64,000 nucleotides of DNA from Limnomonas spitsbergensis (Eukaryota; Chlorophyta; Chlorophyceae; Chlamydomonadales): NCBI GenBank assembly GCA_037349105.1, contig JAYJMM010000100.1, forward strand, positions 2,195,001-2,259,000, written 5' to 3'. Made by a program: the position numbers and the translations under genes. The notes beneath the pieces were generated by a model. It searched no databases and was not told the DNA's origin. It worked only from the letters and a program-made list of their open reading frames with translations. Below, one piece after another: positions 6,886-63,721 of this stretch; the stretch's first letter is position 1; each line of letters begins with the position of its first letter.

Positions 6886-9800
6886 ATGGCCGAAGCAGCA
6901 GGGAAATTGCTGCTGGCAAAGCTGACGCGTCCTAGTATTCTCAAGGTAAATTAACTCACCTCTCCCGCTTCGTTGTCTGTGATTGAGCGCCTACTATGAC
7001 TCTCCTCACCCCTGCGTTTCTTTATTTGTGCAGACAATGAAAATGTCCCACATATCAGGCGGGTTCTGGATGGGTGGCTTTGGCAGCTGTAGTGACTTTC
7101 TATCGGCCCTCCCAAAAGAGGTCTCTGACCTCGCGCTCGAGCATCAGAACGAACACTGGCCAGTGCGTTGGCTGGTTGGAAATTACGGCCTGTCAGGAGG
7201 ATGGCGAACATTCGCTATGGATCACAAACTGTTGGAGAACGACTGCGTGGTCTTCGAGAGGAAGGACGACGTGGTCATCAAGATGTATATATTTAGGTGC
7301 GGTAGCAGAACGTGCTGACGCAGTAACAAGACCATGTGCGCCTGTCTCTTCTGGGTTGTCATGTAGGCATGCACCGCATGGAGCATGGCAGCGTTAGCAG
7401 AAGTGCGCACTAGACCACATTGGGGGAGCTGCCGGGCAGCCAACACTTGGTGCATGGAGAGCAAACCATCCTCAAGCAATAAAGATTGCTGCACCATGCC
7501 CTGCTGGTCGTAGGGCCGGATCTAGCTACATTGTTGCATACGCACCCTAAAATAATTAAATAAACAGACAAGCATGGTGCATGAGGAATATTCATAACGC
7601 GCATGCATGCTGATTACGAGGCAAAGACGAATCGGACGACAGCTGCATGCTGTGAAGTGTAGCTGGAGAACACTTAAATGAAACATGGTGCATGAGACAA
7701 ATATCTCAAATGCAGGCATGCTGATTACGAAGATGAAGCCCATCCGCCGGCGGACGCATATTTTGAAGACGCCGCAGCCGTTGTCTACAAGAATCGGCGC
7801 CTTCAAAGCGCTATCAAGAAGGAGGGTGAGCATGCTGATTGGGGGGGCATACTTGAACGGCCACGGACAGCAAGGACTGTTGCAACCAAGCTGCTGAACC
7901 TCAGAGGAGCGCGGCTCACTCTTATTTTAGGTACCTTCAGCTTTCAGGCTGCTATATCACGGCTTGCAGGTGCGATGGCCTGTTGCAACAGGCTCTGCTA
8001 CTTCTGTGCTCAGACCACCCGCCGTAGGCAGGTCCAGGTTGCGTCATCACTGGCCCCCAGAGGTAGCTGTGACCCAAGGTCTGACGAAGACGATTAAGTG
8101 CACACTAAAACAGTCACAGGTCCAGCTTAACATATCTTGCTTTCAGGGGTGTCCAGCTTGTAAGCGCAAGAGCTTCAAAATGTGATTAAGTGTGAAATAA
8201 TGTAGCAGTGAAGACTGGTTCAGCCGCATCAACCCTTTCCTTCCTGACCCTATTTATTTATTTGTGTTGATCCCTCAGGGGGGCTGAGCGCTAAGCGCAA
8301 GAGCGCCTCAACGGGCCTTGCCAGCGGCAGCCCAGGAGACACCGTATCGCCTGGGCCATCAGCCAGGCGCAAGGGCGCAGCACAGGAACCTTCTCGTTTC
8401 AGCCCAGGGGACACAGTGTCGCCTGGACACTCGGGTAAGATCAAGAGCTTAACACGGCTGGCCATGGATCCACCGGACGCAACGGATCTCACTGCCGGGC
8501 CATCCTTCGACAGCAGCTACGGAGGCTGCGCGTTGCAGGAAGCAGCGGGCGGCAGCCCGATGGCTGTGGAGGCAGCAGGAAGTGGCCATCCAGGCGTGCT
8601 AAAGAAAGCTGCAGGCAGCAGGGGTCCATGCCCCAAGAAAGTGTCGGCAGGGGAAATTCCTGCATGCGCGTCGGGACAGGATCCGGGATCCTCGGAAAAG
8701 GCGGGCGTAGCGGATGCCCGTGCTCGTCTGAGGGACAGATCGGAGCTGGTTCCGGTTCTGAAGCCTGCTGCTCCCGTCTCCGCTGCGGCCAAGATGGTCA
8801 AGAAGTCCTTGGCCGGGAAGCGCTCCAAGGTGGCTGTGGGTGGGAAGGTCCCTGCAGACAAGGGTGGCAAGCTGACAAAGAAAGGTAAGGAAGAGGGCTG
8901 GGGGGTTAACTGCTCACTGAGATCTGTGTTGCCAAAAATGACATGTTCATGATTAAGCCGAGGCCCATATAGAGATGCTCATAGAAACGGCGCAGATTTG
9001 GCTTCGGCCCAGGCTGCGCTGTTTCCTTAAATTTCACGGCGTAGCTTTCTTTCTTTCTTTGCTCATAGGGAACATTTGTTAATACACTTTTTGATGGCAT
9101 TTTCTTGAATCACCTCTCGCTGTGCTGTTGCCAGCCGCCATCAAACAAGGCACTGGCGTTGTCAAGCCCAAGGTTGTGAGGGCACGTGCCCCGCCCAAGA
9201 AAAAGAAAATGTCCGTCTGGGATTACCCGTTCACCGGGAAAGCAGGTGGGTGGGTCCGTCCTTGGCATGTAACTTGTCCACTTGGTCGGATTTATGTGAG
9301 CGCAACAACTCCTGCTACTCTGCAGCTACTTCCTACTGCCATCTCTGCAGGTACTTCCTTCTGCTATTTTTTGTGTTTCTGCAGCTACTTCCTACTGCTA
9401 TTTTTGTTTTCTGCAGCTACTTCCTACTGCTATATCTGCTAGTTTGCTATTCTGCAGCTACTATGTTATGCTGGGGGCCTGGGGCAGGAAGCCATGCTGC
9501 TTTGGCCACCCGCCGTTCACTTCAGATCAAAGGATTTCTTTCCCCGTTAGCCCTGTACTAGTGGCTGGACTGGCTGCTTTGTGGCCTGCCGAAGGCGTTT
9601 GCATGTGCTGAATGCCCTCCTCCATATTGAGGGCCATGATGAAGCTGACTTCTTGCTAGGGCTGGTCTACCGTAGATTGACTTAGACTTCGCGCATAATT
9701 AGTTAATGATTGGCCTGCGCGGACATAGCTGCGCGCCAAAAACGATGCAAAAACTGCCGTTGCGCGGAGTTGAATTCAGGTTCTGGTCGTAGTTGCTGCA

Positions 9801-11389: not shown

Positions 11390-11518
11390 AGGAGTGTGGA
11401 GCCAGCGCGGGGCTGCTCTTCGCCTGCCTGTACCGTATAAGCTGGGTGACTTGGAGCATCCAGGCATGCCCACGGCGACGAGCCAGTGTGTATTTTAGTG
11501 TGCACCTCCATAAGCAAC

Positions 11519-12189: not shown

Positions 12190-13031
12190 AGTGAGTATGA
12201 GGCATCTTTTTCATGCATCCATCCGGTTGGTGTCTGTCTATGCTACGCCTGCCGCCAACTACGGTGATGTGGTGCAGGCCACCGGACACCCCAGGCCGCA
12301 TCACGGCCTCAACAACAAGATACGGTCAAGATTGCTTCAACACCTGCGCCAAATTGCAATGTACCTGCGCCCGCCACCAGCTGGGGGGGCATGAGGGAGG
12401 TGCAGATGCAACCGTCACAACGAGGTTGGTGGTCTGCTGGGTGCATTAGAGGAGCTGGAGCGGGGGGCAGCCACCTACACCTTGCGCGAAGCAGCAGCTG
12501 CCCTACAGCGACTACCTGTCACTGAGGTGTTGGCACTCGTTGACGCAGCCTACTCTGGGCGCTGCCACTAACTTCCACCAGTTGTACCAGGCTGAGCATG
12601 GGTGGGACGCACTTGCTTTTGTGAACTGTGCTGTGGGCATTATAGAGGGTTAGTCTCCAGGGTTTCTGAGGCCGTTGTCGTTGGCCTTTCCGGCCTTCTC
12701 TTTTGGCCCTTATTTGTTTTGTTGTTGTTGTTGTTTCCCCCCTTTTCGTTTCTTCTACTCTCCCTTCTGATCAGTGGGGCGCCCTCGCAGCCAAGCAGGG
12801 GTGGGATACGCTTGCTTTTCTGGACTTTTCTTTTCTTAGAGGCTTTGTTGAGGGCTAGTCTCTAGTGGATTTCAGGTGTTGGACTTGGTCTGCTTTGCCT
12901 TCCATGCCTCTCCCTTTGTTCCTTTCCCCCTCTCTTCATTTAAGTTCCTTCTTTACTCCCTTCTGAACACTTGGGCGCCCACACGGCCGAGGTTTGAGCG
13001 GGCGCAGAGGTGTATTGTTATTGACTTGCAG
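12190..13031 (+). mobile_element. LINE fragment, second copy, 3' end
   Basis: 12215-12400 matches the 4980-5160 part of the first LINE at protein level (SVYATPAANYGDVVQATGH against SVYAAPAANYGDVVWATDH). 12450-12560 matches the following part in another frame (LQRLPVTEVLALVDAAY). After an internal deletion it runs into the pyrimidine-rich tail and ends with a diverged family terminus, GCGCAGAGGTGTATTGTTATTGA (first 20 bases from 13002). It is frameshifted and dead. Confidence 0.75.
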
Positions 13032-13335
13032 GACAGCTCACGCATGTCGGCGGCCGAACGTGGGAGTTGTCATGCAGCTCCAAGTCAGGCAGAGCATCGA
13101 TGGGTGCGACTGGTGTAGGGAATTGCTTGTTACTTAAGAGGATCTGGAGCAGGGAGCAGGCGTCACAGAGGTGCTGGAGCTAGTGGGTGCAGCCTACGAG
13201 CAGGCGCAGCTGTCGCTGACCGGCCAAGGAGATCCCAATGAAATCCCAGCCATCGAAAATAGGTTTGCGACCACGTTTCTCGCGTGGTATCAACCCACAA
13301 CGGGAACTGTGGATGAAGTAGGGCCGTGTGTAAAT
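13032..13335 (+). mobile_element. LINE fragment, third copy, internal part
   Basis: Directly after the previous tail, an internal piece of the same family restarts. The frame at 13171-13320 reads like the first copy at 5435-5580 (LVGAAYEQAQL against LVDAAYERAQL, then an FLAWYQPTTGTV block). It is truncated on both sides. The junction with the preceding tail suggests rearrangement or nested insertion. Confidence 0.7.
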
Positions 13336-14320: not shown

Positions 14321-14386
14321 CACATGCATCATGTGGTGCAGGGGTTCGATAACAATTTACAATATGCCCATGGCACGTTACCATGT

Positions 14387-22200: not shown

Positions 22201-25200
22201 TTGATTACCATAAGCATGAACCCCCCCAGATTAATTACCATAAGCATGAACCCCCCCAGATTAATTACCATAAGCATGACCCCCCCAGATTGATTACCAT
22301 AAGCATGAACCCCCCCAGATTAATTACCATAAGCATGAACCCCCCCAGATTAATTACCATAAGCATGACCCCCCCAGATTGATTACCATAAGCATGACCC
22401 CCCCAGATTGATTACCATAAGCATGAACCCGCCCAGATTAATTACCATAAGCATGAACCCGCCCAGATTAATTACCATAAGCATGAACCCCCCAGATTAA
22501 TTACCATAAGCGTGAACCCCCCTAGATTGATTACCATAAGCATGACCCCCCCAGATTGATTACCATAAGCATGAACCCGCCCAGATTAATTACCATAAGC
22601 ATGAACCCGCCCAGATTAATTACCATAAGCATGAACCCCCCCAGATTAATTACCATAAGCGTGAACCCCCCCAGATTGATTACCATAAGCATGACCCCCC
22701 CAGATTGATTACCATAAGCATGACCCCCCCAGATTAATTACCATAAGCGTGAACCCCCCTAGATTGATTACCATAAGCATGACCCCCCCAGATTGATTAC
22801 CATAAGCGTGAACCCCCCCAGATTGATTACCATAAGCATGAACCCGCCCAGATTAATTACCATAAGCATGAACCCGCCCAGATTAATTACCATAAGCATG
22901 AACCCCCCCAGATTAATTACCATAAGCATGAACCCCCCCAGATTGATTACCATAAGCATGAACCCCCCCAGATTGATTACCATAAGCATGACCCCGCCCA
23001 GATTAATTACCATAAGCATGAACCCCCCTAGATTGATTACCATAAGCATGAACCCCCCTAGATTGATTACCATAAGCATGAACCCGCCCAGATTGATTAC
23101 CATAAGCATGAACCCCCCTAGATTGATTACCATAAGCATGAACCCCCCTAGATTGATTACCATAAGCATGAACCCCCCTAGATTGATTACCATAAGCATG
23201 AACCCCCCTAGATTGATTACCATAAGCATGAACCCCCCTAGATTAATTACCATAAGCATATACCCCCCTAGATTAATTACCATAAGCATGAACCCCCCCA
23301 GATTAATTACCATAAGCATGAACCCCCCCAGATTAATTACCATAAGCATGACCCCCCCCAGATTAATTACCATAAGCATGAACCCCCCCAGATTAATTAC
23401 CATAAGCATGAACCCCCCCAGATTAATTACCATAAGCATGACCCCCCCCCCCCCCCCCCCCCCATATTAATTACCATAAGCATGAACCCCCCCAGATTAA
23501 TTACCATAAGCATGACCCCCCCCAGATTAATTACCATAAGCATGAACCCCCCCAGATTGATTACCATAAGCATGAACCCCCCCAGATTAATTACCATAAG
23601 CATGACCCCCCCAGATTGATTACCATAAGCATGAACCCGCCCAGATTGATTACCATAAGCATGAACCCCCCCAGATTGATTACCATAAGCATGAACCCCC
23701 CAGATTGATTACCATAAGCATGACCCCCCCAGATTAATTACCATAAGCATGAACCCGCCCAGATTAATTACCATAAGCATGAACCCCCCTAGATTAATTA
23801 CCATAAGCATGACCCCCCCTAGATTAATTACCATAAGCATGAACCCCCCTAGATTAATTACTATAAGCATGAACCCGCCCAGATTGATTACCATAAGCAT
23901 GAACCCCCCCCAGATTAATTACCATAAGCATGACCCCCCCAGATTAATTACCATAAGCATGAACCCGCCCAGATTAATTACCATAAGCATGAACCCCCCT
24001 AGATTAATTACCATAAGCATGACCCCCCCTAGATTAATTACCATAAGCATGAACCCCCCTAGATTAATTACTATAAGCATGAACCCCCCTAGATTAATTA
24101 CCATAAGCATGAACCCCCCCAGATTAATTACCATAAGCATGAACCCCCCCAGATTAATTACCATAAGCATGAACCCCCCCAGATTGATTACCATAAGCAT
24201 GAACCCGCCCAGATTGATTACCATAAGCATGAACCCCCCCAGATTAATTACCATAAGCATGAACCCGCCCAGATTAATTACCATAAGCATGAACCCCCCC
24301 AGATTAATTACCATAAGCATGAACCCCCCCCCAGATTAATTACCATAAGCATGAACCCCCCAGATTAATTACCATAAGCATGAACCCCCCCAGATTAATT
24401 ACCATAAGCATGACCCCCCCCAGATTAATTACCATAAGCATGAACCCGCCCAGATTAATTACCATAAGCATGAACCCGCCTAGATTAATTACCATAAGCA
24501 TGAACCCGCCCCAGATTGATTACCATAAGCATGAACCCCCCCCTAGATTAATTACCATAAGCATGAACCCGCCCAGATTGATTACCATAAGCATGAACCC
24601 CCCCAGATTAATTACCATAAGCATGACCCCCCCCAGATTGATTACCATAAGCATGAACCCGCCCAGATTGATTACCATAAGCATGAACCCCCCCAGATTA
24701 ATTACCATAAGCATGACCCCCCCTAGATTAATTACCATAAGCATGAACCCGCCCAGATTAATTACCATAAGCATGAACCCGCCCAGATTAATTACCATAA
24801 GCATGAACCCGCCCAGATTAATTACCATAAGCATGAACCTGCCCAGATTAATTACCATAAGCATGAACCCCCCCATATTGATTACCAAGTAACCTCATTA
24901 ACCTCAAATTATGTTCCTCGCATCTCTATAACCAGAGGTTACAGGCATCACTGACATTGTCTGCTCCACAAACATTCCTTGGTCGCCGCAGGGCTTTAGA
25001 TCCTTGAACCCTATAGGTAGATAATTAATCCCTCCTCCAATATCCTTAAGTCTCCGCATGGCTGCTTTAATCCTTAAAACTAATACGTAAATAAATTGCT
25101 TCGCCGCCACTCCCACCTCCAATGTGCTTTGGTCGCCGCATGGCTGCTTTAATCCTCAACCCTTAGACCTAGATACACATCCTTAGCCCTTCACCCGGAA

Positions 25201-28200
25201 TACATTAGACTGCCTGCGTGCCACCACTCCCACCTCCAATGTGCTCTGTTCCACAATGCTGCCCTGGTCGCCGAACGGCTGCTTTCACGCTTAACCCTTA
25301 GACCGGAATAAATTAGATTGCCTGCATGCCGCCATTCTCACCTCTAATGTACTCTGTTCCACAAAAATGCCCTGGTCGCCATACGGCTGCCTGAGCATCC
25401 TTGTCCTCATCTCCACACCCAGGCTGAGCAGGCGACCTCTGAACGTCCCCTTGAACTGTGACCAGTGAAATAGAAGCTGCAGGATTTCTGTTTATTATTA
25501 TAGTTCAAGGACTGCGAATTTATGATCCTCGTCCTCATCTCCACACCCAGGCTGAGCAGATGCTTTACAATCGTCTTCCGCATCTGCACAACGAGGCTGA
25601 GCAGGGGCCTCTAAGCCCCCTAACACAGTGACCAGCGGAAGTAAAAGCCGCAGGACTCATGGTTTTTATTTTGTATGGTATAAAGATTTTGACCCCCCTC
25701 TGCCTCTCCATGCCCAGTCTGAGCAGGAGGCCTCTAAGCGTCCCCTTCAAATGCGTCAGGGGGGAATAGGAGCTGCGCCTCTCTCCTGCCGCTCACATTC
25801 CTAGTCGGCAGCCGCGTCCTCCATTAGGGCCTCAGACTTACGCCTGCCCCCTTGCGGAGGCTGCTTTTCCGAAGGCGGTTAGCAACCCTTGTCTTCTGGA
25901 GCCCATAGTCATTCCTTTCTTTAAAAGCCACTCCTACTCGCGGAGTTGCAAGATGTAAGTTTTCTATTTTACGACCCTCTTCCACGTAAGCACGCCGGGG
26001 CTGGAAAGTCCCCTTTCAATGCAACCAGCAAACTTAATAATTGCAAGGTGCGTACTTTATGTTTGATACTTTACGATCCTTTTCCAAATATACGGTAACG
26101 GCGCGGATGTGGCTTCGGCCCAGGCTGCGCTGTTTCCTTAACTCTCACGCCTCCAACGGGGCATACCTTTCTTTCTTTCTTTCCAGATGCACCCACCAAG
26201 GCAGAGCAGGCGGCCCCCAAACGTCCCGGTGAATTGTGGCCAGCGAGAAGGAAAGGGTGTTAGTAGTGAGCCTATGGTTCACGACCCAAACAAAAAACGC
26301 AAGAAATAAACCGGAGGAGCACTACTTCAGTATGCGTGTGCTTCTGTGCATGTCTTCCTTTTATTTTTGCACTTGGCCTGCGATCCCAATCGGTTTGTGC
26401 ATACCTGGCTGGATGCCTGACAGTAGCTGCGATCCCAATCGGCCTGACAGTAGCTGCCAGGCATCCAGCCAGGTATGCACAAACACGCACATTAGTACGA
26501 TTACAGGTACCACTATTTTTTTTACTGTTTACAGGACCCGTAACCATTCGCACCAAGAATACCCCGACACGGTGCCACATCCACATTCACACATATCTGT
26601 ACCTCCGTTTTAACATCCGTACCTCTGTCTAAACATCCGTACCTCCGTCTAAACATCCGTACCTCCGTCTAAACATCCGTACCTCCGTCTAAACATCCGT
26701 ACCTCCGTCTAAACATCCGTACCTCCGTCTAAACATCCGTACCTCCGTCTAAACATCCGTACCTCCGTCTAAACATCCGTACCTCCGTCTAAACATCCGT
26801 ACCTCCGTCTAAACATCCGTACCTCCGTCTAAACATCCGTACCTCCGTCTAAACATCCGTACCTCCGTGTCTCTGTACCTCCATCTACCTCCGTCTGCAC
26901 ATATCCGTACCTCTGTCTGCACAGTCTTGAAGCAGCCCCACACCGGCCAGCGCTGCGGGCGCTCCATGTCGCAGAGGCCGGAGACACTTTGCCGCCCTGC
27001 TGTCCAGCTGCTGCTGCCGCTGCCGCTGCTGGGGTTGCCACCACCACAGCTGCTGCTACTCTTGTTGTTGTTGTTGCTTGGGTTGCTACTACTGCTGGTG
27101 TTTTTGCTGCCCTTGTTGCTATTCTGTTGGCCGAGCCAAGCCCAGGGCCAGCTGGCAGCCAAACCCGAGGCGAGGCGGTTGTTCCCCGGTTTGTCGGATG
27201 AGTTGCTGCTTCTCTTCTCACAAACGGTGGCACAGGTGCTGCATCGACCGGACGAGGTGTTGCAGAACGAGTTGCCCTGGCAGCGAGGGGTGCGCGCTAG
27301 GGCGGCCTGCAGGGGGACAATCAGCGGCAGTAATTCAGAGGGACCATTTGTGTACCCGATTTGCATATTTGGTTTGACCGGTACAATATGTTCACCACTT
27401 TTCACTATAATTTCTCCAAATTTCGAACTCGGTTTTCACTAGAATTTCTCCAGATTTGTACCCTGTTGCAAGAAAACATTACACACCAGTGCCTGCTCAG
27501 ACCCAATAGCATCAGTTTCGAGGATGAACTACGCCTTGTGCGGGGGCAGAGGCCAGAAAAGTGCAGCTGGGGCCCTGGCCGCGTCCCCGCCGCTATGAAA
27601 TAGGCGACGAGGCCTATGCCCCCCCAGCTGATAACTGCCTGCTGGCCATAGTTCAACCAGCGGCCGAATGAACAGTAATAGAATTTTAGTTCAGGGTTTA
27701 GCGTCCAGGTTTTATGCAGCTTGCTGCACTCACTGCATGTATTTAAGTTCCTGGCACATTGATTTAATTAAGGTACATTTGCAATCATTCTCTCATACCC
27801 ATTCATCTATTACTTTGCCGACATGCATCAGGTTCAACCCCACACCTGCATGACCTCCAGGTAGCTGGGAGGCAGCTGGCTCCCGTCGATTGCATTTGTT
27901 TGCAAAACATAACTTAATTTATCAACACAGGTATTGATTTACCTAATGACCAGCATTCACCAGCATGCAGTTATGCATTATCTTGAACCCCACACCTGCA
28001 TAAGCTCCAGGTGGCAGGGAGGCAGCTGGCTCTCGTCGATTGCATTTGTCTGCAACATTGCTACCCTACGAGTTGATATCCCGCCCAAAGAGAGGGAGCC
28101 GGGCCCTTTGTTAATATTTAGTATTATATACCAGCACCGTACTTTTTTTTTAGAGTTTGGAGATTTTTCAAATGGATTTTTTCATGCATTTGGTTTCTTT

Positions 28201-31200
28201 TTTACTTAAAAAGTTTTTTAGACACAAAATTTAAAAGTGTTTGCATCATTATCAAAAAATTTAAAAGCTTACTAGAAGATATCTGGAAGATTTGTTTCTT
28301 TACTTTCTTATATTCTTTATTGATTTTTATTAGTAAAACTAAAAAATTCTAGTTTAGTTAAATTTTTTGAGTTTGTAAAATTTTGAAAGACCAGCTAAGC
28401 GATTGACCATGCAAAATCTTATGGCAAGGCTTTATAAGATTCTGCATTGATAAGATCTTACTTGGCCTAATCTTGTTTTTAGCTACGCTAAGCGATTGAC
28501 AATGTTTTAAATGTAACAGATTTTAAAACAGCTTTGCTGCGAAATATATTATATTTTTGGACAACAAAGTTGTAATAGTAATGTTTTTATAAGATTTTCC
28601 GCTAAGCAGTTTTTAAAATTTAAGACAGAAAAAAAGTTTATAATTTTTCCCCCCAACATCATTACTTTTAAAATCATATTTGATTAAATCAGAGTCATTT
28701 CCGCTGTGGACGCGGTCCGCCCGGTTACGTCCGGCATGCACCAGCATGCAATCATGTATTCCTTTGAACCCCACACCTGCATGAGATCCAAGTAGTTGGG
28801 AGGCAGCTGACTGTCGCCGTGCAGAAATAGGAACCAGCAGGGGCTGCGGCCGGGCTGAGACATGGGGGACCGCTTCTGTGCAGTGGTAATAATGGTGGGA
28901 GGAGGAGGAGGAAGAGGAGGAGGAGGGGGGGGGCTGGGATATAAATACATGCAGAAACAGGAACCAGCTTCAGGAGCCGCGGCCGAGCTGTGACATGGGG
29001 GACCGCTTCTGTGCAGTGTGTAAGAGTAATAAGGGTGGGAGGAGGAGGAGGAGGAGGAGGAGAAGGAGGAGGAGGAGGAGGAGGAGGAGGAGGAGGAGGA
29101 GGAGGAGGAGGAGGAGGAGGAGGAGGAGGAGGAGGAGGAGGAGGAGGAGGAGGAGGGGGGCTGGGATATAAAGACATGCAGAAATATAAACCATCTTTCG
29201 GTGGCACAGCCAGGCTGAGACATGGGGGGCCGTTTCTGTGTAAGAGTAATAATGGTGGGAGGAGGAGGAAGAGGAGGAGGAGGAGGAGGAGGGGGTGCCT
29301 GGTATACAGAAACAAGAACCGTCTTTAGGTGGCGCAGAGACCACTTAAATGCAAGAGAGATCATGGTGGGAGGAGGAGGAGGAGGGGGAGGGGGGTATAA
29401 ATGGTTGCAGAAATAGGAACCAGCGGGAGCCGCCGGGGCTGCAGCTGCTGAGGCTGTGAGGCATGTTGAATTGCTTATTTGCAAGGGATAGTGGTGGGAA
29501 GAGGAGGAGGGGGGTGGGGGGGTGAGAAATGAAGTCATGCAGACACGGAAAGGAACAGGTGCCGCGGTGGGGCTGTGATTTATAGAAAGCATGGAGACTT
29601 TCCTTGGCACCCTGCTTGGCACCTTACCAAACTGCCTCTATCTGGTGGGAATGTGTGAATAGAGGGAGATGCAGAGGAGAAAGGCACTATATATGAACTG
29701 GAAGAAAGCTGCAGCAGCTGGGAAGCCACTAAGAGGACGGAGAAGGTCAAGCCCCTTACTTTCCACCTGACCCAACTGATTTTGTTACAGGCAAAGGGCA
29801 ATGCAGGGGGTGGGTGGGGGCAGGGCAGTTTGTCGTCAAGGTATTCTGTTTGCTTCAGTCTTCAGCTATGCGTCAGCTACATGTCAGCTCGATGTCAGTT
29901 ACATATCAGCTGCACTCCAGCTTCTCGCCCGAGGCGTCCCGCATGGCCTGCCCTGCTGTTTGGGCCGCCGGCCATGGTCTGGTCGAGGTTTGGTCCAATA
30001 TATATTTTTCGCCGGGACGCGACCCACCGAAGGTGACTTCCAAGACATAAAGGAAATGCTGGGGTCATTACAGTGTGATTCCCCCAGTAAAGTGTGACCC
30101 CTTAGTAAAGCGTGATTCCCCTGGCAAAGTGTGATTCCCCTACCACAGGTTCGGTTGGAACCGAAACCTGACCGGCCTACAGAGATGCAGGCCTAAGCAG
30201 CATGGCTGCCAGTGCATGGAGCTTTTAGCCAGAGTCCAAGGGGTAGCTGAAATGTAGCTGACATGCAGCGGAAATAAATTGAGATGCAGAATAAATGGAG
30301 CCCAGACGCTCCTATTGAATGGATTTTTCATACCCGAGGGAAGGTAAATCAAATCCATGGTAGACAACCCTTCTTGCTAGACCTATATTGCAGAAGCCTT
30401 AATCAGGCCCGCCATCCTGCATCGAGTTGCACAGCATGCGAGCACATGCATGGCGGTGCATGGTCGTGAATGAAAGGATGCTCGCATGTGTGCATGATGC
30501 CCCTTACCGTTGCTGCTGATGAGGCTCGCCATCCTGCGTTGAGTTGCCTGCCCCGTCCCCGCCCGCAAGAGATGACCTGCTTGGCATGCAATAATGGGCA
30601 TGGGCAGTGCATGGGTGATGAATACCACTCACGCATGGGCGGTGCATGGGCGGAGCATGGGTAGTGCATAGGTGATTGATGCCACTCACACATGGGCGGT
30701 GCATGGGTAGTGCATGGGTGATTCATGTCACTCACGCATGGGCGGTGCATGGGCAGTGCATGGGTAATTGATGCCACTCACGCATGGGCGGTGCATGGGC
30801 AGTGCATGGGTGATTGATGCCACTCCCGCATGGGCGGTGCATGGGCAGTGCATGGGTGATTGATGTCACTCACGCATGGGCGGTGCATGGGCAGTGCATG
30901 GGTGATTGTCACTCACGCATGGGCAGTGCATGGGCAGTGCATGGGTGATTGATGCCACTCACGCATGGGCGGAGCATAGGTGATTGATATCACTCACACA
31001 TGGGCGGTGCATGGGTAGTGCATGGGTGATTGATGCCACTCACACATGGGCGGTGCATGGGTAGTGCATGGGTGATTCATGCCACTCACGCATGGGCGGT
31101 GCAAGGGCAGTGCATGGGTGATTGATGTCACTCACGCATGGGCGGAGCATATGTGATTGATGTAACTCACACATGGGCGGTGTATGGGTAGTACATGGGT

Positions 31201-34200
31201 GATTGACGCCACTCCGCATGGCCGTGCATAGGCGGAGCATGGGTGACAGCGGCTACTTACCAATGGGCGGTGCATGGACAGTGCATGGGAGGTGTGTGCA
31301 TGGGAGGTGTATGGGAGGTGCATGGGAGGTGCATGCATTGGTGACGCATACATGGGCAGTGCATGGGCAGTGCATGCATGGGCGGTGCATGAGCGGGCCA
31401 TAGATGGTGCATGGGCAGTGCTCGAGCAGTGCATGGGTAGTGCATGGGCAGTGCACGGGCGGTGCTCGTGCGGTGCACAAGCGATACATGGGCGGTGCAT
31501 GGGCGTTGCACGGGCGGTGCTCGGGTGGTGCATGGGCGGTGCACGGGCGGTGTATGGGCAGTGCACAGGCGGTGCTCGGGCGGTGCACGGGCGGTACAGG
31601 CGTTGCATGGGTAGTGCACAGGCGGTGCTCGGGTGGTGCTCAGGCGGTGCGTGGGCGGTGCACGGGCGGTGCATGAGCGGTGCACGGGCGGTGCACGGGC
31701 GGTGCATGGGCGGTGCATGGGCAGTGCACAGGCGGTGCTCGGGTGGTGCTCGGGCGGTGCATGGGCGGTGCACGGGGTGCACGGGCGGTGCACAGGCGGT
31801 GCATGGGCGGTGCATGGGCAGTGCACAGGCGGTGCTTGGGTGGTGCTCGGGCGGTGCATGGGCGGTGCACGGGGTGCACGGGCGGTGCACGGGCGGTGCA
31901 TGGGCGGTGCATGGGCAGTGCACAGGCGGTGCTCGGGTGGTGCTCGGGCGGTGCATGGGCGGTGCACGGGGTGCACGGGCGGTGCACGGGCGGTGCACGG
32001 GCGGTGCATGGGCGGTGCAGGGGCAGTGCACAGGCGGTGCTCGGTTGGTGCTCGGGCGGTGCATGGGCGGTACGGTACAGGCTTAACCAGATTGTGCAAT
32101 CAATGTACTACGGTGCAACATGATAAGGGACCGCTTTAGACGTTTTGTGCTACCATGAGCCCATGGCACACTTGGCCGCAGCAGTGCCTACCTTTGCCCC
32201 GCTCTTGCGCGCCTTGTCCTGAGTACCGTCAGTGCTGCCACCGTCCGCCACCACAACTTCCACGAGTCCAGCGTCACGCCGCACACTGCTTGGGCAGAGA
32301 AGCAAATGAACCACTGAATACAAAAGTATATGAAGCCCTGTGCAGCGCTCATGCTCTTGGGCATAATTGCTTGGGGAGAGAAGCAAATGAACCACTGAAT
32401 ACAAAAGTATGAAAATGGAAAGCCTACGCCCTAAACAACTTCAGGCCAGATGTTCCAAAGATGTGCATGAGGCCCTGCGCAGCAGCGTATGAGCTTATGT
32501 CCTTGGGGATACTTGCATGAACAACTGAATACAAAAGTATGAAATGGAAAGCCTACATCCTCAACAACTTCAGGCCAGATGTTCCAAAGATGTGCATGGA
32601 GCCCTGCGCAGCAGCGTATGTTCTTAAGCTCTTGGGGATACTTGCATGAACAACTGAATACAAAACATTTAAATGGAAACCCCTGACCCCGAAACAGCTG
32701 TATAGTGTATGGTAGTTGTTCCGATGATGTGCATGAAGCCCTGTGCGGCGCTTGTTTCCTAGGGCATAAAAAATTGCATGGACATGTAAATTAAACCGGT
32801 CAAAATGGCAACCCTGAACCAACCCCCTACCAACTTGTACATCTTCCAAAGATGTGCAATCGTGCATGAAGCCCTGTGCGGCGCTCATGCCCTTGGGCAT
32901 AATGGCAAGGACACATAAATCAAATGATCAATATGGAAATCCTTGACCTCCTTCACAACTGGTGGATCTTCCAAAGATGTGCATACAGCCCCATGCAGAA
33001 CAGCTCATGTGTTTGAGCGTAATTGCATGGCAAGTCCATAAAATAAAATGAAACCCTCGGAGGCTGAACAGGAACCTTTTGTTCACTTGAGTGCACACCA
33101 GTGCCCAGTGCAGTGCTCGCGTGTCGAAAATAATTCATGGCAGGCGATGAACTACAACCCCGCGGAGGCTGAACAGGAACCTTTTGTTCACTTGAGTGCA
33201 CACCAGTGCCCATCAAACAGTACGCGGCATGTTGCTTGAACGTAATGGCATGACGGGCCATCGAAATATGACCCTCGGAATGTATGTGTATATATATACA
33301 ATGGTATGCTATCCATGGAACCACTGCTCGCACAGAGGACACGAGGCCCTCTCTACTCTTTAGCAGGCGCCTGGCTGATGGCCGCCTAGCAGGCGGCCAT
33401 CAGCCGTCACTGTAGGGCTGCACCATGCGCTGCTTGGCAGAGTTAGTTGCATGAAACAAACAACGCTAATGAAATCCAGAGAACATACAAAGGAAGGCAT
33501 GGGTATGAACCAAAGGGGAGTGGACATTTTGAACAGACCCTACCCTAACACTGTTTAAACAAATAACCTAAATCCGGGGAAACTAAAAAGAAAGGATCGG
33601 GTGTAAACCTGAAGGGTGTAAAACTGAGGGTGTGTGAAGCTGAGCGGTGTGAACCTGAGGGGGTGTGATCCTGAGGGGTGTGAACGTGAGGGGTGTGAAC
33701 ATAGGCCCTAGAGCCTCACCTGGCAATGGAGCTCACGATATTGTCGGCCTCGTTCTGAAGGCAGCGGCACAAATACAGGTCAGGTGAAACAGACTTGGTA
33801 GATAAATAAATGAATACGCAAACAAGCGAGTGGATTAAGAAAGCCACCCATTTTGGCTGAAGCATGAGACGTGGCCACCGTGACCACCTCGATCACCATG
33901 GGCACACAGGGAGCCCCCTCCCTGTTAAGGAGACCTGCTGACAGGAGGACTCAGGGCTCGACGTTTCAAATCGTGGTTTAGGGTTTATAATAAATAGATT
34001 AATACACCCTGGGGCATGGATTAAGGAAGCCACCCGTTCGGCTGTAGCACTAGGTGGGCTACCAGGCTTAGGGTTAACAGTACAGGAAGGATGGCAGCCA
34101 TTAAGGCCTGCTGTCAGGCAGTCTTGTTGGCTGGGTGCCCTCTAACCAATCTTTCCCCTATGTGCCCAACGGTGGGTGCTTCCTGTCCATGTGCATGCAT

Positions 34201-37574: not shown

Positions 37575-37925
37575 GATGCGACACTGCCTCTTGGGCAGGT
37601 TCTGGCATGGGCATCATGTGCAGCGCCCAGTGCACTTTTCTTACCACTCTCCCTCCCCCTCTCTCTTTCCTCACTCCTCTATCTCCTTCCCTATCTCACA
37701 TGACACGCTGCTGCCTCCAGGGCTGGCACCGGCATACGCAAGAAGTACAGCTCCCTGTCTCTCTCCATCTTAAGGTGCGTTGTTGCTGCTTCTGGGGCTG
37801 GCGCCGGAACGGGCAACACATGTTGCAATGATGGCTTTGGGATCATTTACCACGCCTCCATCCCTTTATTTCCCTCTTCTCTCTCTCTTTGAAGGTACGC
37901 TGCTGCTGCTTCTTGAGCAGGCGCC
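37575..37925 (+). repeat. Three decayed copies of calcineurin B exon 1
   Basis: Blocks at about 37579-37630, 37704-37755 and 37775-37835 match the leader and start of the real exon 1 (37900-37960). The counterparts of GGAATGGGCAACAAGTGC are GGCATGGGCATCATGTGC, GGCATACGCAAGAAGTAC and GGAACGGGCAACACATGT. Only the real copy combines the start codon, the open frame and the donor. Confidence 0.8.
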
Positions 37926-37928: not shown

Positions 37929-40900
37929 ATGGGCAACAAGTGCAGCACTAATGGTCAGCTGGGTGGTCGGTTGACGCAAGATGACATCGCCAGGTTGCAA
38001 CGAAGGTGTGTGGGTTCAACAAAGAGCCTGGTGGAGTTTAGGGTTTAGGGTTTGATCCCCAATAGCCTAGTGGAGTTTGTGGCAACAGGCCTATGTACAG
38101 ATGATCAGCTGGGGAAGGGGGGAGGGGGGGGCGGTTGACGCGCGATAACTTCGCCAGGCTATAGAGAGGGCCAGTGGTTAAACAACCCACCTGGTGAAGC
38201 GCTATGACAGATCTACCTCTAATGAGGTGATCAGCTGGGGGAAGGGGCGGGTGGGAGGGGAGTCCCCTCAGTCTCACCGCCAGTGTTGCTATTATCGTCC
38301 TTCAGCTACAATTCAGCTACATCACGGTCTACGGCCGTGGGGGGCTGGTGCAGCAAGTCCTGCTGTTTGGGACACCGGCAATTAGGCCGGTCGATGTTTC
38401 GTCCCAATTGGCCCAACAGTGGCCGCCCGGCGGCCCCCTAAGCGTGGTCTGGTGCCCACTAATCACCTCCCTCCCTGATGACATGACAATGACACTCAAT
38501 CACTCATGCAGGTTTACCAGGCTGTCTGTTCAGTCCCCTCAGCGGCTCAGCCTCACATCCTTCCCTGAATGGCACTCAATCACTCATGCAGGTTTACCAG
38601 GCTGTCTGGCAACAGCAGCGGAAAGGTGTCCATCGGGCAGGTCAGTTCCAAGCCGGTTTTTAAAGGTTTTCAGTTTCAAAACCCTGAACCTTACATGCCA
38701 TATTACAATTCTCACACTGGGATGGGGATCGGGGGGTATGAACAGGGTATGGGCAGGGTATGAACAGGGTATGAATCAGAGGGTCTCAGATTGTTGACCT
38801 CAAATCCTAAACCAGGGTGACGTTTGGCCATGTGAATCACATGGCCTAGTTAAGTGAGTTCTACAAAGGGAAACCAGGGTAGGCATGAATGGCGCGAAGG
38901 CCCATGCAGTGAGGATATGTGCAGCATTAAGACACTGGATATCGGAGTGCATGGGTGCTGGCCGCGCTATCCTTGGAGCTGATTACCACGCTTGCTCCTT
39001 TCCCGAATTGCAGATCCTGAGCATGGTGGAGCTAGGGGCCAACCCCTTCATCCCAAGGTGTGACGGATGTGCACCTGTAGATGCTGATCCAGTTACAACC
39101 CGATCCTGATCCAGACCTATCCGTCAGGTCTCAAGTCTGGATCCTGGACCCTGATCTGCAGGTCAAAGAATGAAAATGTTGAAGAATAAGGCAGATCCTG
39201 GTATTTGAAACTGTTGGGAACAAGTTCTGAATTTGAATTTGAATTTGACGGCCGCAAGGCCTCCTCAAGTCATCCAGCTGCTTTAATTCTTGAGGGGCCT
39301 CCTCAGTGTGCCTTCATAAATTGCTTATTGTTGTCCGTTTTTGCCTTGGGCTGCCTTGCTGTTGCTCCCGCTGGCGTGCTGCCCCTTGTTTATCCGCTTA
39401 ATCTGTATTCTTGCTCGCTCACTCTCAGGATTTTCCAAATGTTTGACAGTGACAAGGATGGGATGGTGAGTTCGGAGAGAGAGGACAGGGGCGGAGGTAT
39501 GGGTAGGGGAATTGGGGCAGGCAGGGAGGGTAGTGAAAGGGATCTTATGTGGTGGAGCACTACAACCCTTACCGATAGAAAGGGCAGGTGGGTCGGGGTA
39601 ATGGAAGGCTGAGGGAAGGATTCTCCACCTTCGATAGTGGCAAGGACGGGATGGTGCGTTGGTAGGGAGAGGACAGGGAGTAGGGGCAGGGAGGGGAAGG
39701 AGGGGGCCAGGGGGGAGGGATAGGGGAAGGCTGTGGGAAGGATTCTCGACCTTTGACAGTGGCAAGAACAGGATGGTGTGGTCTGTGGGGAAAAGGGGCA
39801 GGCCTGGGGGGGAGGGGGAAGGGAGGGGAAGGGGAATCGCTTATTGCAATGGAGTTTCAGGACAGAATTGGAGAGGGGTGTGATCAGATTTCAGATTCGC
39901 AGTCCATTGGGCGCCAACGAGGCGCTTGCTGGCGTGGGACTTGAGCCTGCAGGCCTCGATTTTTCCTGTCGTGCCACTGTTCCACTCTCACCTGCACCCT
40001 TCACATTTTCTCCTCACACATCCTCATACCTCCTCACACATCCTTAAACCTGCTCACACATCCTCATGCCTCCTCATTCCTCAAACATCCGTATACCCCC
40101 TCACACATCTTCATACCTCCTCACACATCCTCACACATCCTCACTCCTGCAACCTCCTTTTCATCACTTAGCTGTCACTGGAAGAGTTCACGATGGCGCT
40201 GGAGCTCTTCGGACGGCTCGATAACGAGGAGGAGCAGTACAAGTGTGAGTTGTAGTGTGATACTGTGATTGTATGGCAGTACGGGCACAGCGCACCATTG
40301 AGCGTCCACAGCCCCTACCGCAGTTCCAAAGCCTTGCCTCTATTTCCCTCATGCCTCCTAATCCCATGCGAGTGCATGGCCACATGCCTCGCATTCCTAT
40401 GCATGCATATGGACGCATGCCTCCTATTTGCATACGCGTACATGGCCGCATGCCTCGTATTCCCATGTGAGCACATGGCCGCATACGTGCGCATGGACCC
40501 ATGCATGCACATTGACTACCTCCTCGCTTGTCAAACCGTGAAATTGCCTCCCAGACCTGGATGAGGGCGACGTCGTTTCCACACGCCTGCACATGGCCCA
40601 ATACCTCACGTCTTCATGCTTGCACATGGCCACATGCATGCACATGGAACCATGCATGCACATGGACCCATATCACCGCTCCTCGTGTTCCCAACCGTGC
40701 ACATGGCTGCATGCATGCACATGGTCCCATGCACGCACATGGCTGCATACGTGCACATGGCTGCAATGCATGCACATGGTCCCATGCATGCACATGGCCC
40801 TATGCATGCACATGGCCCCATGCATGCACATGGCTGCATGCTTGCACATGGCTGCATGCATGCACATGGCCCCATGCGTGCACATGGCCCCATGCGTGCA

Positions 40901-42651
40901 CTTGGCTGCATGCGTGGACATGGCTGCATGCGTGCACATGGCTGCATGCGTGCACATGGCTGCATGCATGCACATGGCCCCATGCGTGTACATGGTCCCA
41001 TGCATGCACATTGCTGCATGCATGCACATGGCCCCATGCGTGCACATGGACTCATTCTTCACATTCCCAATTGTACAGTTGCCTTCAAGATCTATGACCT
41101 GGATGAGGACGGCGTCATATCATCTCAGGAGCTGTTCAAGACGCTGCAGGGCATGGTCGGGGCTCACTACTCTGAGGCGCAGCTGGAGCAGGTATGGGGG
41201 AAGGTGTGGAATGGTGTGGAGGTGTGAAGGACAGGTTTGGACGGATGGCTGGAGATGTAAGGATCAGGTGTGGACGTGTGGCTGCTGGAGGTGTGAGCGG
41301 ACGTCAAGGGGCTTGCATGGGGCGTTAGAGGGGGGCTTGCCTGCATACTGCATAGGAGGCTGATGCAGTTGCTTGCGTAAATGAAATGCCAGTAAGTATC
41401 AAGTTAGAATGAATAGGTTTCCATGTTCCATGCAATGGCGTCACCCGCATGCATCACCCATGCTGATTGGTTGCCCTTTGCAACCTTTATGGGGGCATTT
41501 CCCTGCTATCCCAGCCGAGGTCAGTCATATACCCCTACCCTCTCCATGATCAACTGTCCCTTGGATTGTCCTCAATCAACACGCTGACGGTACGCGGATG
41601 GTCCTCGGGTTTAGGTTTAAGTGACAAACACAATGACGGTACGGCATTTGATTTCAACCTGATTTCGAACTATCCATGGCGGTGCGAAATCATCTCCTCC
41701 TCTTTGCAGACTGCTCCCTACACCTTTGTGATAAAGAAATAAGAAAATAGACATTGACATGGTGACGAACTGTCGACAGCAATAGGGAATGACAGGGTTT
41801 GACCCCCTGTTCCATGGTGTCTGTTTTTGTCTGCTTTGCAGATATTTCTCAACACCTTGGTGGAGTTGGACCTTGACATGAATGACAACCTGTGTGTAGC
41901 AATATGCAATGGCAGAGTTTGGCACCCTGTTCCATGGTGTCTGCATACGTCTCCTGAGTTTGACCCCCTGGTCCATGTTGCCTGTATTCGTCTCCTTTGC
42001 AGATTGTTCTCAATACCATGGCCGAGTTCGACCTCGATGGTGACAATTGTCTGAGTCCAGAGGAGTTCAAGATGTTGCTGAGCAGGTGAAAGGGAGGAGG
42101 CGATGAGGGGAGCATTAGGGCCAAAAGGGGGGGGGGGGCTGAGGGGCTGAGGGGAGCATTAGAGCCAGGGGGGGGGGGGGGGGGGCTGAGGGGAGCATAA
42201 GTACCGGGGGGAAAGGGGGTGGGGGGGCTGAGGGGAGCATAAGAGCCAAGGGGGAGAAGGGGGTGGGGGGGGGCTGAGGGGAGGGAGGGGGGGCTGAGGG
42301 GCGGGAAAGCTGAGCAGGTGGGGGTAGGGGTGGGGGGATTGAGATGGGTTGAGAGGGAAAAGGGGGGCTGAGGAGAGGGAGAGGGCTGAGGGTGGGAGCT
42401 GTGGTGATTGAATGGAGGGAGAGGGGATGAGGGGGGAGGGAAGGGGGGCTGAGCAGGTAGAGGGGTGGGAGATGGGATGAGGGAGGGTGTAAGGATGGAT
42501 GGTCGGGGCAGAGGGGAGGGAGTGGGGGCTGAGGGGAGGGGCAACATTTTGCTGGTGCTGTTGGTGCTGAATCTGACTCCGCATCTCTCCTTTCTGACCC
42601 TACTTCTCCCACAGCTCCGACCTGCAGTCAAAATTCGCTTTATCGCTGTGA
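37929..42651 (+). CDS. CNB1: Calcineurin B, regulatory subunit of PP2B
   Basis: Exons: 37929-38005, 38592-38640, 39014-39057, 39429-39465, 40172-40244, 41079-41191, 42003-42085, 42615-42651. All have GT-AG ends and matching phases; the product is 170 residues, the usual length for this subunit. It begins MGNKCS, an N-myristoylation signal. Four EF hands follow. EF1 (residues 31-42) is degenerate, with Ser at position 1 and Gln at 12, so Ca binding is doubtful. EF2 (63-74, DSDKDGMLSLEE) and EF3 (100-111, DLDEDGVISSQE) are canonical. EF4 (141-152) has Asn for the usual Gly. LSMVELGANPF between EF1 and EF2 is typical of calcineurin B. It should bind a catalytic A subunit and activate it with Ca. 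Repeats in its introns are described separately. Confidence 0.93.
38038..38053. repeat. Telomere-like TTTAGGG tract
   Basis: Two TTTAGGG units lie in calcineurin B intron 1, just downstream of exon 1. Confidence 0.7.
38095..38280 (+). repeat. Decayed copies of exon 1 inside intron 1
   Basis: At 38100-38180, GATCAGCTGGGG followed by CGGTTGACGCGCGATAACTT mirrors exon 1's GGTCAGCTGGGTGGTCGG and TTGACGCAAGATGACATC. A shorter third copy starts near 38228. The copies carry stops and indels. Confidence 0.8.
38494..38530 (+). repeat. Decayed copy of exon 2 with its acceptor
   Basis: The ~36 bp from CACTCAATCACTCATGCAG through GTTTACCAGGCTGTCTG are identical to the real acceptor and exon 2 start 80 bp downstream (exon from 38592). 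The copy then diverges and lacks the EF1 loop. Two identical splice acceptors therefore compete. Confidence 0.9.
39612..39782 (+). repeat. Two decayed copies of exon 4 in intron 4
   Basis: Copies at 39615-39657 and 39737-39780 match the EF2 loop exon (39429-39465), for example TTCGATAGTGGCAAGGACGG against TTTGACAGTGACAAGGATGG. Both lack two bases, breaking the frame, and the donors are altered (GTGCGT, GTGTGG). Confidence 0.85.
40375..41050. repeat. ~18-bp GCATGCACATGG array in intron 5
   Basis: Dozens of units of CTGCATGCATGCACATGG with CCC/CTG and CGTG/CATG variants run to within 30 bp of the exon 6 acceptor (41078). At 40525-40590 lies a decayed copy of exon 6 itself, with GACCTGGATGAGGGCGACG against the real GACCTGGATGAGGACGGCG. 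Three looser copies of the acceptor flank sit around 40600-40700. The array appears to have grown from the intron end. Confidence 0.9.
41704..41960 (+). repeat. Two decayed copies of exon 7 in intron 6
   Basis: The real exon 7 (42003-42085) is preceded by copies beginning at about 41710 and 41842. The second keeps the CTTTGCAG acceptor and an open frame reading FLNTLVELDLDMNDNLC, against VLNTMAEFDLDGDNCL in the real EF4. It lacks a clear donor. Each copy brings ~130 bp of flank containing GTTTGACCCCCTGTTCCATG. Confidence 0.88.
42105..42560. repeat. G-run repeats in intron 7
   Basis: Imperfect units of GCTGAGGGGAGCATNAG with G-runs up to about 17 fill most of intron 7. The transcribed strand is the G-rich one, so RNA quadruplexes are possible. 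Confidence 0.85.
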
Positions 42652-43319: not shown

Positions 43320-46300
43320 ATGTTTCAGGCAGGAACGCAAACTGCCATGCATGCTGAGGCCGGGACGAGCCAAGGACCGTCGACTAGTAGCACTGTGACA
43401 AGCACAGTCGCCCCTCGGACCACAGTAACAGGTATCTTAGCACTTGATTTCAAAAATGTCCTGCATGCGAAACTTTGTCGTTGTCATGGCGACGGGCACG
43501 GGGAGGGGGGCCCCCGCACCCCCCGGAAGCCAGCGTGATTCAAATTTGCCTTGTCCACTACCGCAGAGACGCTCACGCTGCGGCTAGTGCCGAAAAGAAA
43601 GAAGAAAAAGGTGCGAGCCGCTGACTGGACTTAAAAGGGGAGTCGTTGCGGCAGCTACACCCATTTGCACTCATGGCATGCCGGCGCTCCCGTCTAGGCT
43701 CTGCGCTGGGCTTCCTTGCCCGCCAGCGTTTTGTGTGGGCGGGGGGCATGATAACTGCATGCCTGCACTGACGCAGCTGGTCCATTAGGTTTCGCCCTTG
43801 GCACCCTCCAGCCCAGGCTCTGCGCTGCGCTTCACGCCGGCGAGCGCTTTATATGAGGGGGGCCTTTGCGATTGCAAGCATGCCCAGTGCCTGTCGCTGC
43901 CATGCATGGCGTCAAGTGGGCAAGAGAGGTTATGCTGATTACATGCATGCCATGTGTCTGATGCTGCCAGACATGGCGTCAAGTGGGCAACGGATCATGC
44001 TGATTACATGCATGCCATGTGTCTGAAGCCGCCATGCATGGTGTCAAGTGGGCTTGAGAGATAATGCTGATTACATACATGCCATCTGCCTGTCACTGCC
44101 ATGCATGGCGTCAAGTGGGCAAGAGAGATTATGCTGATTACATACATGCCATTTGTCTGACGGTGCCATGCATGGTGTTAAGAGGGTAAGAGACATTATG
44201 CTGATTGCATGCTTTCGCTACGGCAGGGTGGGGGGGGGCACCTTCACGAGAATCATGATGACTTGTGTGCTGACTGACTGCATGCACCGTGCATGCCCTG
44301 TGTCTGTTGCTGCCTTGCACAGTAGTGGTGGGAAAAATCTGTGATGCTGATTACATGCATATGCTACACCTAGGGTGGGAACTGGGGAGCGACTTCATTG
44401 GCTGCACGCATGCTGACCGCATGCGCTTTGGGGGGGGTAGCGCGTTCGTGGCTGCATGCAAGCTGACCGACTGCATGCCTGCGCTTTTTCTTGAAGGGGG
44501 GCCTTCTTGAGTACCATATTGAGAGCTTGCTGACTGACTGACTGACTAATTGAGTGATTCCTGATTGCTTGTGTGCCGACCAACTGCATGCATGCTGACC
44601 AGTGACCACCTGCATGCAACCGCTGCTATGAGTGGGGACGCCCATGTGAGAGACATGTTCAGTGCATGCTGATTCCTGATTGCTTGTATGCTGACCACCT
44701 ACATGCATGCAGACAACCTGCATGCATGCTGACCACCTGCATGCATGCTGACCAACTGCATGCATGCTGCCCAACTGCATGCATGCTGGCCACCTGCATG
44801 CATGCTGACCAACTGCATGCATGCTGACCACCTGCATGCATGCTGACCACCTGCATGCATGTTGACCACCTGCATGCATGTTGACCACCTGCATGCATGC
44901 TGACCACCTGCATGCATGCTGCCCAACTGCATGCATGCTGACCACCTGCATGCATGCTGACCACCTGCATGCATGCTGACCACCTGCATGCATGCTGACC
45001 AACTGCATGCATGCTGACCACCTGCATGCATGCTGACCACCTGCATGCATGTTGACCACCTGCATGCATGCTGACCACCTGCATGCATGCTGACCAACTG
45101 CATGCATGCTGACCAACTGCATGCATGCTGACCAACTGCATGCATGCTGACCACCTGCATGCATGTTGACCAACTGCATGCATGCTGACCACCTGCATGC
45201 ATGCTGACCACCTGCATGCATGCTGACCACCTGCATGCATGCTGACCACCTGCATGCATGCTGACCAACTGCATGCATGCTGACCAACTGCATGGATGCT
45301 GACCAACTGCATGCATGCTGACCACCTGCATGCATGCTGACCAACTGCATGCATGCTGACCAACTGCATGCATGCTGACCACCTGCATGCATGCTGACCA
45401 CCTGCATGCATGCTGACCACCTACATGCATGCTGACCAACTGCATGCATGCTGACCAACTGCATGCATGCTGACCACCTGCATGTATGCTGACCACCTGC
45501 ATGCATGCTGACCAACTGCATGCATGCTGACCAACTACATGCATGCTGACCAACTGCATGCATGCTGACCAACTGCTGTTAGGGAGGGAGGCCTTCTTGA
45601 CAATCATGTTGAGTGCAAGCTGACCGATCGCTTGCACGTGCTGTCGCCACCGAGCAGGGCGTCAAGTGGTCGGAGGAGGTCATCGACAACGAGTTCCTGG
45701 GGAAAAAGAGCTCGAAAAGTAAGCCGTCTATTAATTGCTTCTTCAAGGGTTCAAGATTAGGGTTCATATTTAGGGTTTAGGGTTTAGGGTTAAACCCCCT
45801 CATGCTCGCTTGCTGCATTACCACGTGCCAGCCTGCCCCGTTCCTGCAACACCACATGCCAGCGTGCCCCTTAGTGGCCACCTGCTCAGCTGCATAAATG
45901 ACCACCGACCTGCAGGCCTGCAGATGTCTAGTCCTTCTTGCTATCATGCCCGGATTTTCAGCATCCGGAGCAGGCTCTTGCCCAGCTGCTGAAATGACTA
46001 CCGTCCTGCAGGCCTTTAGATGTCTAGTTCTTCGTGCAATCATGCCCGGACTTGCAGCATTCGGAGCAGGCTCTTGCTCAGCTGCTGAAATGACTACCGT
46101 CCTGCAGGCCTTTAGATGTCTAGTTCTTCGTGCAATCCTGCCCGGACTTGCAGCATCCGGAGCAGGCTCTTGCTCAGCTCCTCCAATGACCACCGCCTGC
46201 CTAGCAGCGGGCCTTAAAAACCTAAACCGTACAACCTTTAACCTAAACCCAAAACCCTAGCCCAGCTGCTCAAATGACCACCGCCTGCAGGCCGCTGAGA

Positions 46301-63721: not shown

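Follow-up and report, generated by a model that had tools for sequence, protein, structure and literature searches.

Tandem genomic duplication has been described as a route of intron gain, and intron sliding has been described in Drosophila (PMC3443670, PMC2891723); in the former, as the accessible portions of these reports set it out, exon sequence is duplicated and the splice sites decide which of the copies becomes intron. Repair-mediated duplication, known from vertebrates, leaves local copies of exons, splice sites and partial exon/intron segments within 5 kb, with microhomology; the study describing it, in the part at hand, discarded copies lying within 50 bp as tandem and counted partial exon/intron donors in 4/824 (PMC2671141). 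Copies in neighbouring introns are also a feature of tandem exon duplication and mutually exclusive exons (PMC9013439), where the copied exons are whole and functional. Finally, core-Reinhardtinia algae share unusually long introns, and the account of Craig et al., in its accessible part, names no mechanism and leaves the driver open (PMC8226300). The initial annotation of the DNA analyzed here, which interpreted mutated exon copies beside real exons as the outcome of a genome-wide process, had known of no named mechanism for it; tandem genomic duplication and repair-mediated duplication are related ones in print. In the open-licence PubMed Central literature searched, we found no account of the two features described below, namely a rule that ties the copied part of an exon to the side on which the copy lies (the side rule) and tandem arrays seeded by exon edges.

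Our locus, hereafter the window, is the whole stretch of 64,000 nucleotides that was analyzed from the green alga Limnomonas spitsbergensis, on contig C100 of a genome of 260,226,709 bases in 124 contigs. According to the genome paper, Limnomonas belongs to the Moewusinia, a clade other than that of the core-Reinhardtinia algae; introns of the species average 788 bp, repeats account for 33%, and RNA-seq and IsoSeq data are presented (PMC11228838). Our main reading, to which we assign a probability of roughly 0.83, is that general microhomology-associated tandem duplication, together with purifying selection, explains the exon-edge copies found here. The likeness to intron gain by tandem genomic duplication is plain, but the intron seems to be pre-existing in our case, an existing splice edge being duplicated and the intron lengthened. 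Unlike the products of vertebrate repair-mediated duplication, the copies in this alga obey the tandem side rule and occur often (11/89 exon-like segments at random loci), and unlike mutually exclusive exons they are partial, decayed edges. Whereas the core-Reinhardtinia account names no mechanism, some intronic arrays in this alga carry the edge of the adjacent exon in their unit.

The calcineurin B gene of the window has eight exons and GT-AG introns and encodes a complete 170-aa protein. The best relatives of known structure are chains with calcineurin B, and Chlamydomonas eustigma and C. euryale have named relatives of 71% identity. The exons with copies, and the copies themselves, are the following:

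37929..38005, forward strand: exon 1 (coding part)
37584-37624, 37707-37751 and 37758-37834, forward strand: three copies upstream of exon 1, each of its 5' part plus flank, 75.6-80.5% identity, E 6e-4 to 3e-13
38125..38158, forward strand: downstream copy of the 3' part of exon 1, 82%, E 5e-5
38592..38640, forward strand: exon 2
38488..38528, forward strand: upstream copy of the acceptor and start of exon 2, 41 bp, 97.6%, E 2e-15, AG intact
39429..39465, forward strand: exon 4
39617-39678, forward strand: downstream copy of nearly whole exon 4, 64 columns, 79.7%, E 4e-11, GT kept
39752-39778, forward strand: second downstream copy, 3' part of exon 4, 85.2%, E 5e-4, GT kept
41079..41191, forward strand: exon 6
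40400..40574, forward strand: upstream diverged copy of the intron end and start of exon 6, 68% over 188 columns, E 9e-15
42003..42085, forward strand: exon 7
41797..41876, forward strand: upstream copy of the acceptor and first 35 bases of exon 7, 80 bp, 82.5%, E 4e-19, CAG kept

A search of each exon with 150-bp flanks against the same gene found direct copies in the gene's own introns for exons 1, 2, 4, 6 and 7, exactly the exons that the initial annotation had named, and no same-gene direct copy at E <= 1e-3 for exons 3, 5 and 8. In the main tally described below, the copies of these five exons have E values of 8e-4 to 6e-17. The own-gene best scores of exons 1, 2 and 7 lay above those of 200/200 shuffled exons; the scores of exons 4 and 6 were reached by 1/200 shuffles each and that of exon 3 by 2/200, and those of exons 5 and 8 by 77/200 and 158/200. 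At all five exons with copies the homology crosses the exon border into the intron (at exon 1 the border on the start codon side), and the exon 7 block spans -45 to +35 around the acceptor. The copy of the 3' part of exon 1 ends 11 bases before the exon end, the exon 2 copy sits 80 bases upstream, with its edge at 38511/38512, and the exon part of the exon 6 copy comprises 40554-40574 (90%, E 8e-4). In the near-whole copy of exon 4, AG and GT remain and the frame is broken by a 2-base gap. Flank-only copies outnumber exon copies in this gene, many of them being minisatellite units. The introns of the window also contain telomere-like TTTAGGG runs, at 38037-38053 and 45770-45791.

Three other genes, for which exon copies had likewise been proposed, contribute copies, again listed with the exons to which they belong:

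45658..45718, forward strand: PP1-inhibitor exon 3 (PF07491)
43320-43431, 43567-43610 and 63567-63721, forward strand: further PP1-inhibitor exons as read
43870..44212, forward strand: minisatellite of five 67-bp units in PP1-inhibitor intron 2, the unit including the acceptor side and start of exon 3
7037..7294, forward strand: B3-domain exon (PF02362, 29.3 bits, just under the cut-off of 30.1)
7570..7619, forward strand: acceptor-side copy of proposed B3 exon 3 (template 7681-7730), 79%, E 1e-6
32204..32294, reverse strand: glycosyltransferase GGSTDG exon (VVVADGGSTDGTQ)
32368-32410, reverse strand: acceptor-edge copy of the GGSTDG exon (template 32287-32329), 97.7% over 43 bp, mostly intron side, 8 exon bases only
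30521..30586, reverse strand: glycosyltransferase GRGRQ exon (GRGRQLNAGWRAS), with a donor-edge copy at 30402-30430, 86%, E 1e-5
24960..25431, reverse strand: glycosyltransferase PYGDQG block (25290-25390) with downstream copies at 25182-25282, 25103-25134 and 24960-24995, exon ends putative

The PP1 inhibitor (PPI_Ypi1) has a PF07491 match of 75.5 bits. The copy of its exon 3 does exist (83% identity over 29 bp, E 4e-4), restricted to the acceptor side and the 12 exon bases that follow; the two best 67-bp units match this exon edge at 79-83% over 29 bp, with E of 4e-4 and 0.004. Shuffled exons reached the score of exon 1 in 1/200 cases, that of exon 3 in 2/200 and that of exon 2 in 187/200. 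The last intron of this gene (45719-63566, about 17.8 kb, GC skew near -0.73) houses a 17-kb array of a 32-bp C-rich unit, in about 530 copies, at 46631-63540. The copy of the proposed B3 exon 3 was also found (53 columns at 79%, E 1e-6), again for the acceptor side only, and the exon is itself putative, as are the B3 exon models past the domain and most of the glycosyltransferase. Joined pieces of the latter match PF00535 at 31.9 bits. Copies had been claimed for glycosyltransferase exons 4, 5, 7, 8 and 9; edge copies are present at the GGSTDG and GRGRQ exons and further copies at the PYGDQG block, and the claimed exon numbers are unmatched. The three PYGDQG-block copies have 80.6-83.2% identity (E 7e-5 to 4e-27), a putative block at 28731-28819 has two copies, and the NEADN exon had no copy in the same search. 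At 17478-24887, a 30-bp unit that is strongly C-rich on the forward strand is repeated 247 times over 7.4 kb.

Copies were tallied as direct copies within 2.5 kb of an exon at E <= 1e-3; those lying within the exon were excluded, as were overlaps shorter than 12 bases. Ras-family genes retrieved by homology served as a first test set (30 exon segments, later 12 more). Because the window genes are not typical and Ras copies are scarce, random loci were adopted as the sample: twenty 10-kb stretches at round-number positions, chosen blind to content and totalling 200 kb. Their exon-like segments were chosen by codon usage with copies ignored, and 89/117 were used after those scoring under 7 were omitted. 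The Pfam cut-off was reached by 12/30 checked segments, including exons of glutamate synthase, fructose bisphosphatase, Arm, BTB and phosphodiesterase and one transposon-like chromodomain, and two segments of L014 match MAP kinases; the majority of the segments rest on codon usage. As for the background of repeats, tandem arrays with at least 2.6 copies occupy 23.8% of the random 200 kb (and 98% of locus L017), local direct repeats make up 8.0% outside arrays vs 1.5% for inverted ones, and the offset is below 500 bases in 52/75 direct repeat pairs.

Direct copies accompany 7/15 exons of the window set vs 11/89 random-locus segments and 4/42 Ras-family exon segments (2/30 at first, then 2/12 more); the window is atypical in copy richness. 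The process nevertheless reaches beyond it, with similar copies at random loci (fructose bisphosphatase, MAP kinase) and in some Ras-family genes. The genome-wide reading is supported in that repeated short tandem duplications span intron end and exon also outside the window, and it is not supported as a process of exons: in the 20 random loci a nearby direct copy was found for 11/89 exon-like segments vs 122/712 non-coding ones, with an exon-to-non-coding ratio of copy rates of 0.72 (95% CI 0.41-1.28), and at identities of at least 85% the counts were 5/89 vs 50/712. A comparison of own and other loci agrees with the expectation that exons resemble their own surroundings, as 13/89 exon-like segments reach 30 bits at home vs 0.95 expected from other loci (two of the 13, E6 and E38, being one weak reciprocal pair about 4 kb apart); at that level 6/89 have inverted own-locus copies. 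Non-coding segments of the same lengths have own-locus direct copies of at least 30 bits in 93/445 cases, vs 12.4 expected from other loci, and inverted ones in 30. From the own-locus excess and the non-coding counts together it follows that local duplication is real and that exons are not favoured. In the Ras-family genes the expectation was not borne out, the own locus being strictly best in only 2/30 segments, where chance gives 2.5; for all 41 exons together the figure is 10, vs 3.4 expected. The copies are real, and an exon-targeted process lacks support from the random loci.

Only 1/29 direct copies spans more than 80% of the exon from which it derives, calcineurin B exon 4; the other 28 are partial, contrary to the idea that exons are copied whole and the extras then decay. 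In 27/28 partial direct copies, those of the 5' part of the exon lie upstream and those of the 3' part downstream (random loci 13/14, Ras genes 4/4, window 10/10), the breaker being the exon-like segment E48; when homology-supported exons alone are counted, in this tally and among the further segments below, 24/24 partial copies, in 14 exons, obey. The frame and both splice sites are missing in copies mainly because the whole exon was apparently never held. As regards orientation, 29 copies are direct and three inverted, all three in L018, a locus with transposon-like ORFs. In L018, at 3008-4090, nearly identical (97%) inverted ORF-segment copies share the locus with a chromodomain ORF and are the source of the only inverted copies in the main tally; some of the ORFs there presumably resemble retroelement ORFs. 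Among 57 further segments outside the main tally, eight with direct copies, we counted 16 direct copies, two of them whole, and two short inverted ones (22 and 16 bp). The side rule is obeyed by 12/14 partial copies of this group, five of the 12 coming from one exon, and both misses belong to F8, itself a copy within the glycosyltransferase block; F8 and F5 (B3) sit at sites searched earlier in the window.

Non-coding DNA behaves differently. In the 712 control segments, 142/213 partial copies obey the rule and 71 violate it, and 30 copies are whole. Only rule-obeying copies were found for 18/20 exons vs 54/122 non-coding segments, with a Fisher P of 1.5e-4 that is rough because the control segments were resampled from the same 20 loci, and copies inside the segment itself occur in 1/134 exons vs 22/712 non-coding segments. 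The rule is violated in non-coding DNA where segments straddle a unit junction. Since a tandem unit beginning in the intron and ending in the exon, combined with an exon that is kept intact, yields the geometry of the side rule, the rule points to a tandem origin of the copies and to selection for the intact exon.

The junctions of tandem rows offer a view of how such units arise. In a set of 41 young tandem rows, each of two copies with 93% identity or more (L001, the window copy, and L003, near-identical to L002, were left out), the exact junction overlap averages 3.9 bp vs 0.88 in 20,000 random junctions, the rows partly sharing larger arrays and thus not being independent, and several overlaps being homopolymeric C or G. 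When the rows are grouped by hand into 20 arrays, the overlap is at least 3 bp in 12/20 vs 7% expected. These overlaps, which were measured on tandem rows in general and not on the exon copies themselves, fit slippage or microhomology-mediated joining. High-identity pairs have an offset of at least 1.5 times their length in 17/20 cases. Templated insertion, which such offsets suggested, was rejected for 7/9 examined pairs, whose spacers match the sequence downstream of copy 2 (at most 1/100 shuffles as good) and which are older tandem arrays. The spacers were unrelated to the downstream flank in 2/9 pairs, window 2244/2449 and L012 6975/7092, the latter being one of the exon copies. The former is a 45-bp identical direct repeat (2244-2288 and 2449-2493) with a 160-bp spacer, which simple tandem duplication does not explain.

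We propose that short head-to-tail duplications, of tens to hundreds of bp, would occur frequently everywhere, often between short identical words and probably by way of a repair or replication pathway. Some units would reach across a splice site, breaking at one end within the intron and at the other within the exon, and the outcome would be either two acceptors and two exon starts or two donors and two exon ends. Because the protein can be made only from the copy that is continuous with the remainder of the exon, splicing would have to use the inner site, as protein homology suggests that it does. The outer edge would turn into intron, and could then decay or multiply into a minisatellite. 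Duplications within the exon, or of the whole exon, would usually alter the protein and be lost, selection probably acting as the filter. Weighing against this reading are segment E48, the near-whole copy of calcineurin B exon 4 and the two whole copies among the further segments, the scarcity of copies in Ras genes, and the 2/9 spaced repeats with unrelated spacers, which could be repair-mediated insertions.

Other explanations account for parts of these observations. A process aimed at exons or splice sites, duplicating exons repeatedly, would agree with the abundance of copies in the window genes (7/15 tested exons), but random exons are copied no more than length-matched non-coding DNA, and in calcineurin B the flank-only copies exceed those of exons; we regard it as very unlikely. 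Still less credible is the tandem duplication of whole exons as alternative or mutually exclusive exons whose extras decayed: the calcineurin B exon 4 copy, near-whole and with AG and GT left, is of the expected kind, but whole copies number one against 28 partial ones in the main tally, the frame of that one is broken, and the side rule is not a prediction of this model. Synthesis-dependent repair could instead copy exon pieces into nearby breaks with no tandem step, and human partial exon/intron duplications have been attributed to that route in the part of the study available (PMC2671141). The 2/9 examined spaced, near-identical pairs with unrelated spacers would suit it, and the orientation gap is narrower at the looser 30-bit level (13/89 direct vs 6/89 inverted). 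However, insertion into breaks gives no reason for the side rule or for direct orientation, which prevails by 29 to 3 in the main tally (with all three exceptions in L018) and by 16 to 2 among the further segments. We therefore consider repair copying an unlikely source of the copies as a whole.

The copies could also be remnants of intron birth, through tandem genomic duplication of AGGT-containing exon sequence, the same type of mutation and a documented route of intron gain, as far as the consulted parts of those papers describe it (PMC3443670, PMC2891723). Against this, the blocks include intron sequence lying beyond the acceptor or the donor, as at calcineurin B exon 7, so the intron seems older than the duplication, and we find intron birth highly improbable here. 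An artefact of assembly or sequencing might be suspected in a long-read assembly of a genome that the accessible text describes as repeat-rich (PMC11228838), but the copies diverge by about 2-32% from their exons, which polished errors would hardly produce, and the chance of this is close to negligible.

If general tandem duplication filtered by selection is at work, intronic arrays may preserve its later stages. In L044, a Ras-family exon ends in WDTAGQERYQSLAPMYYR followed by GTAGGG, and five direct copies of this edge lie in the next intron at 72-80% identity, one of them still reading CTACAG-GTAGGG; L037 has three exon-edge copies of similar kind. The suggestion of the initial annotation that the copies inflate genes and supply decoy splice sites is supported at the sequence level, as they add to introns and leave splice-site-like decoys. 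The splice dinucleotide is kept, in alignments, in the copies of calcineurin B exons 2, 4 (two copies) and 7 and, beyond the window, in two copies each of fructose bisphosphatase and L044 and in two donor-like edges of L012; it is lost in the copies of calcineurin B exon 6 and PP1-inhibitor exon 3.

A bolder possibility, which we hold as tentative and rather doubtful, is that introns in this algal lineage have grown, and still grow, in large part by exon-edge duplication, with edges copied outward, the site of the full exon working, and old edges seeding minisatellites. If this were so, introns would be a stratified record of former splice edges, the spliceosome would constantly ignore near-perfect decoys, and exon-edge duplication could be a cause of long introns in related green algae, whose driver is left open in the accessible part of the core-Reinhardtinia study (PMC8226300). 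What deserves to be followed is the edge rule, together with the way in which coding edges seed intronic arrays. Since coding edges, unlike intron sequence, are recognisable, they can date and orient duplications inside introns, and the side rule, if it applies genome-wide, would be a simple test of how introns lengthen. Decoy splice sites beside true ones form natural sets in which the choice of the spliceosome should be readable from existing RNA data. For annotation, exon-like pieces in such introns are not to be taken for exons.

Other repeats of the window include a dispersed 75-90 bp element, at 8986-9060 and 26097-26182, with at least 40 further matches in the genome at 77-91% identity, possibly a short interspersed repeat. 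Diverged copies (about 68-78%) of a longer repeat lie 7-8 kb apart at 4966-5568 and 12200-13311, and a 92-bp inverted repeat at 26393-26484 is 80% self-complementary.
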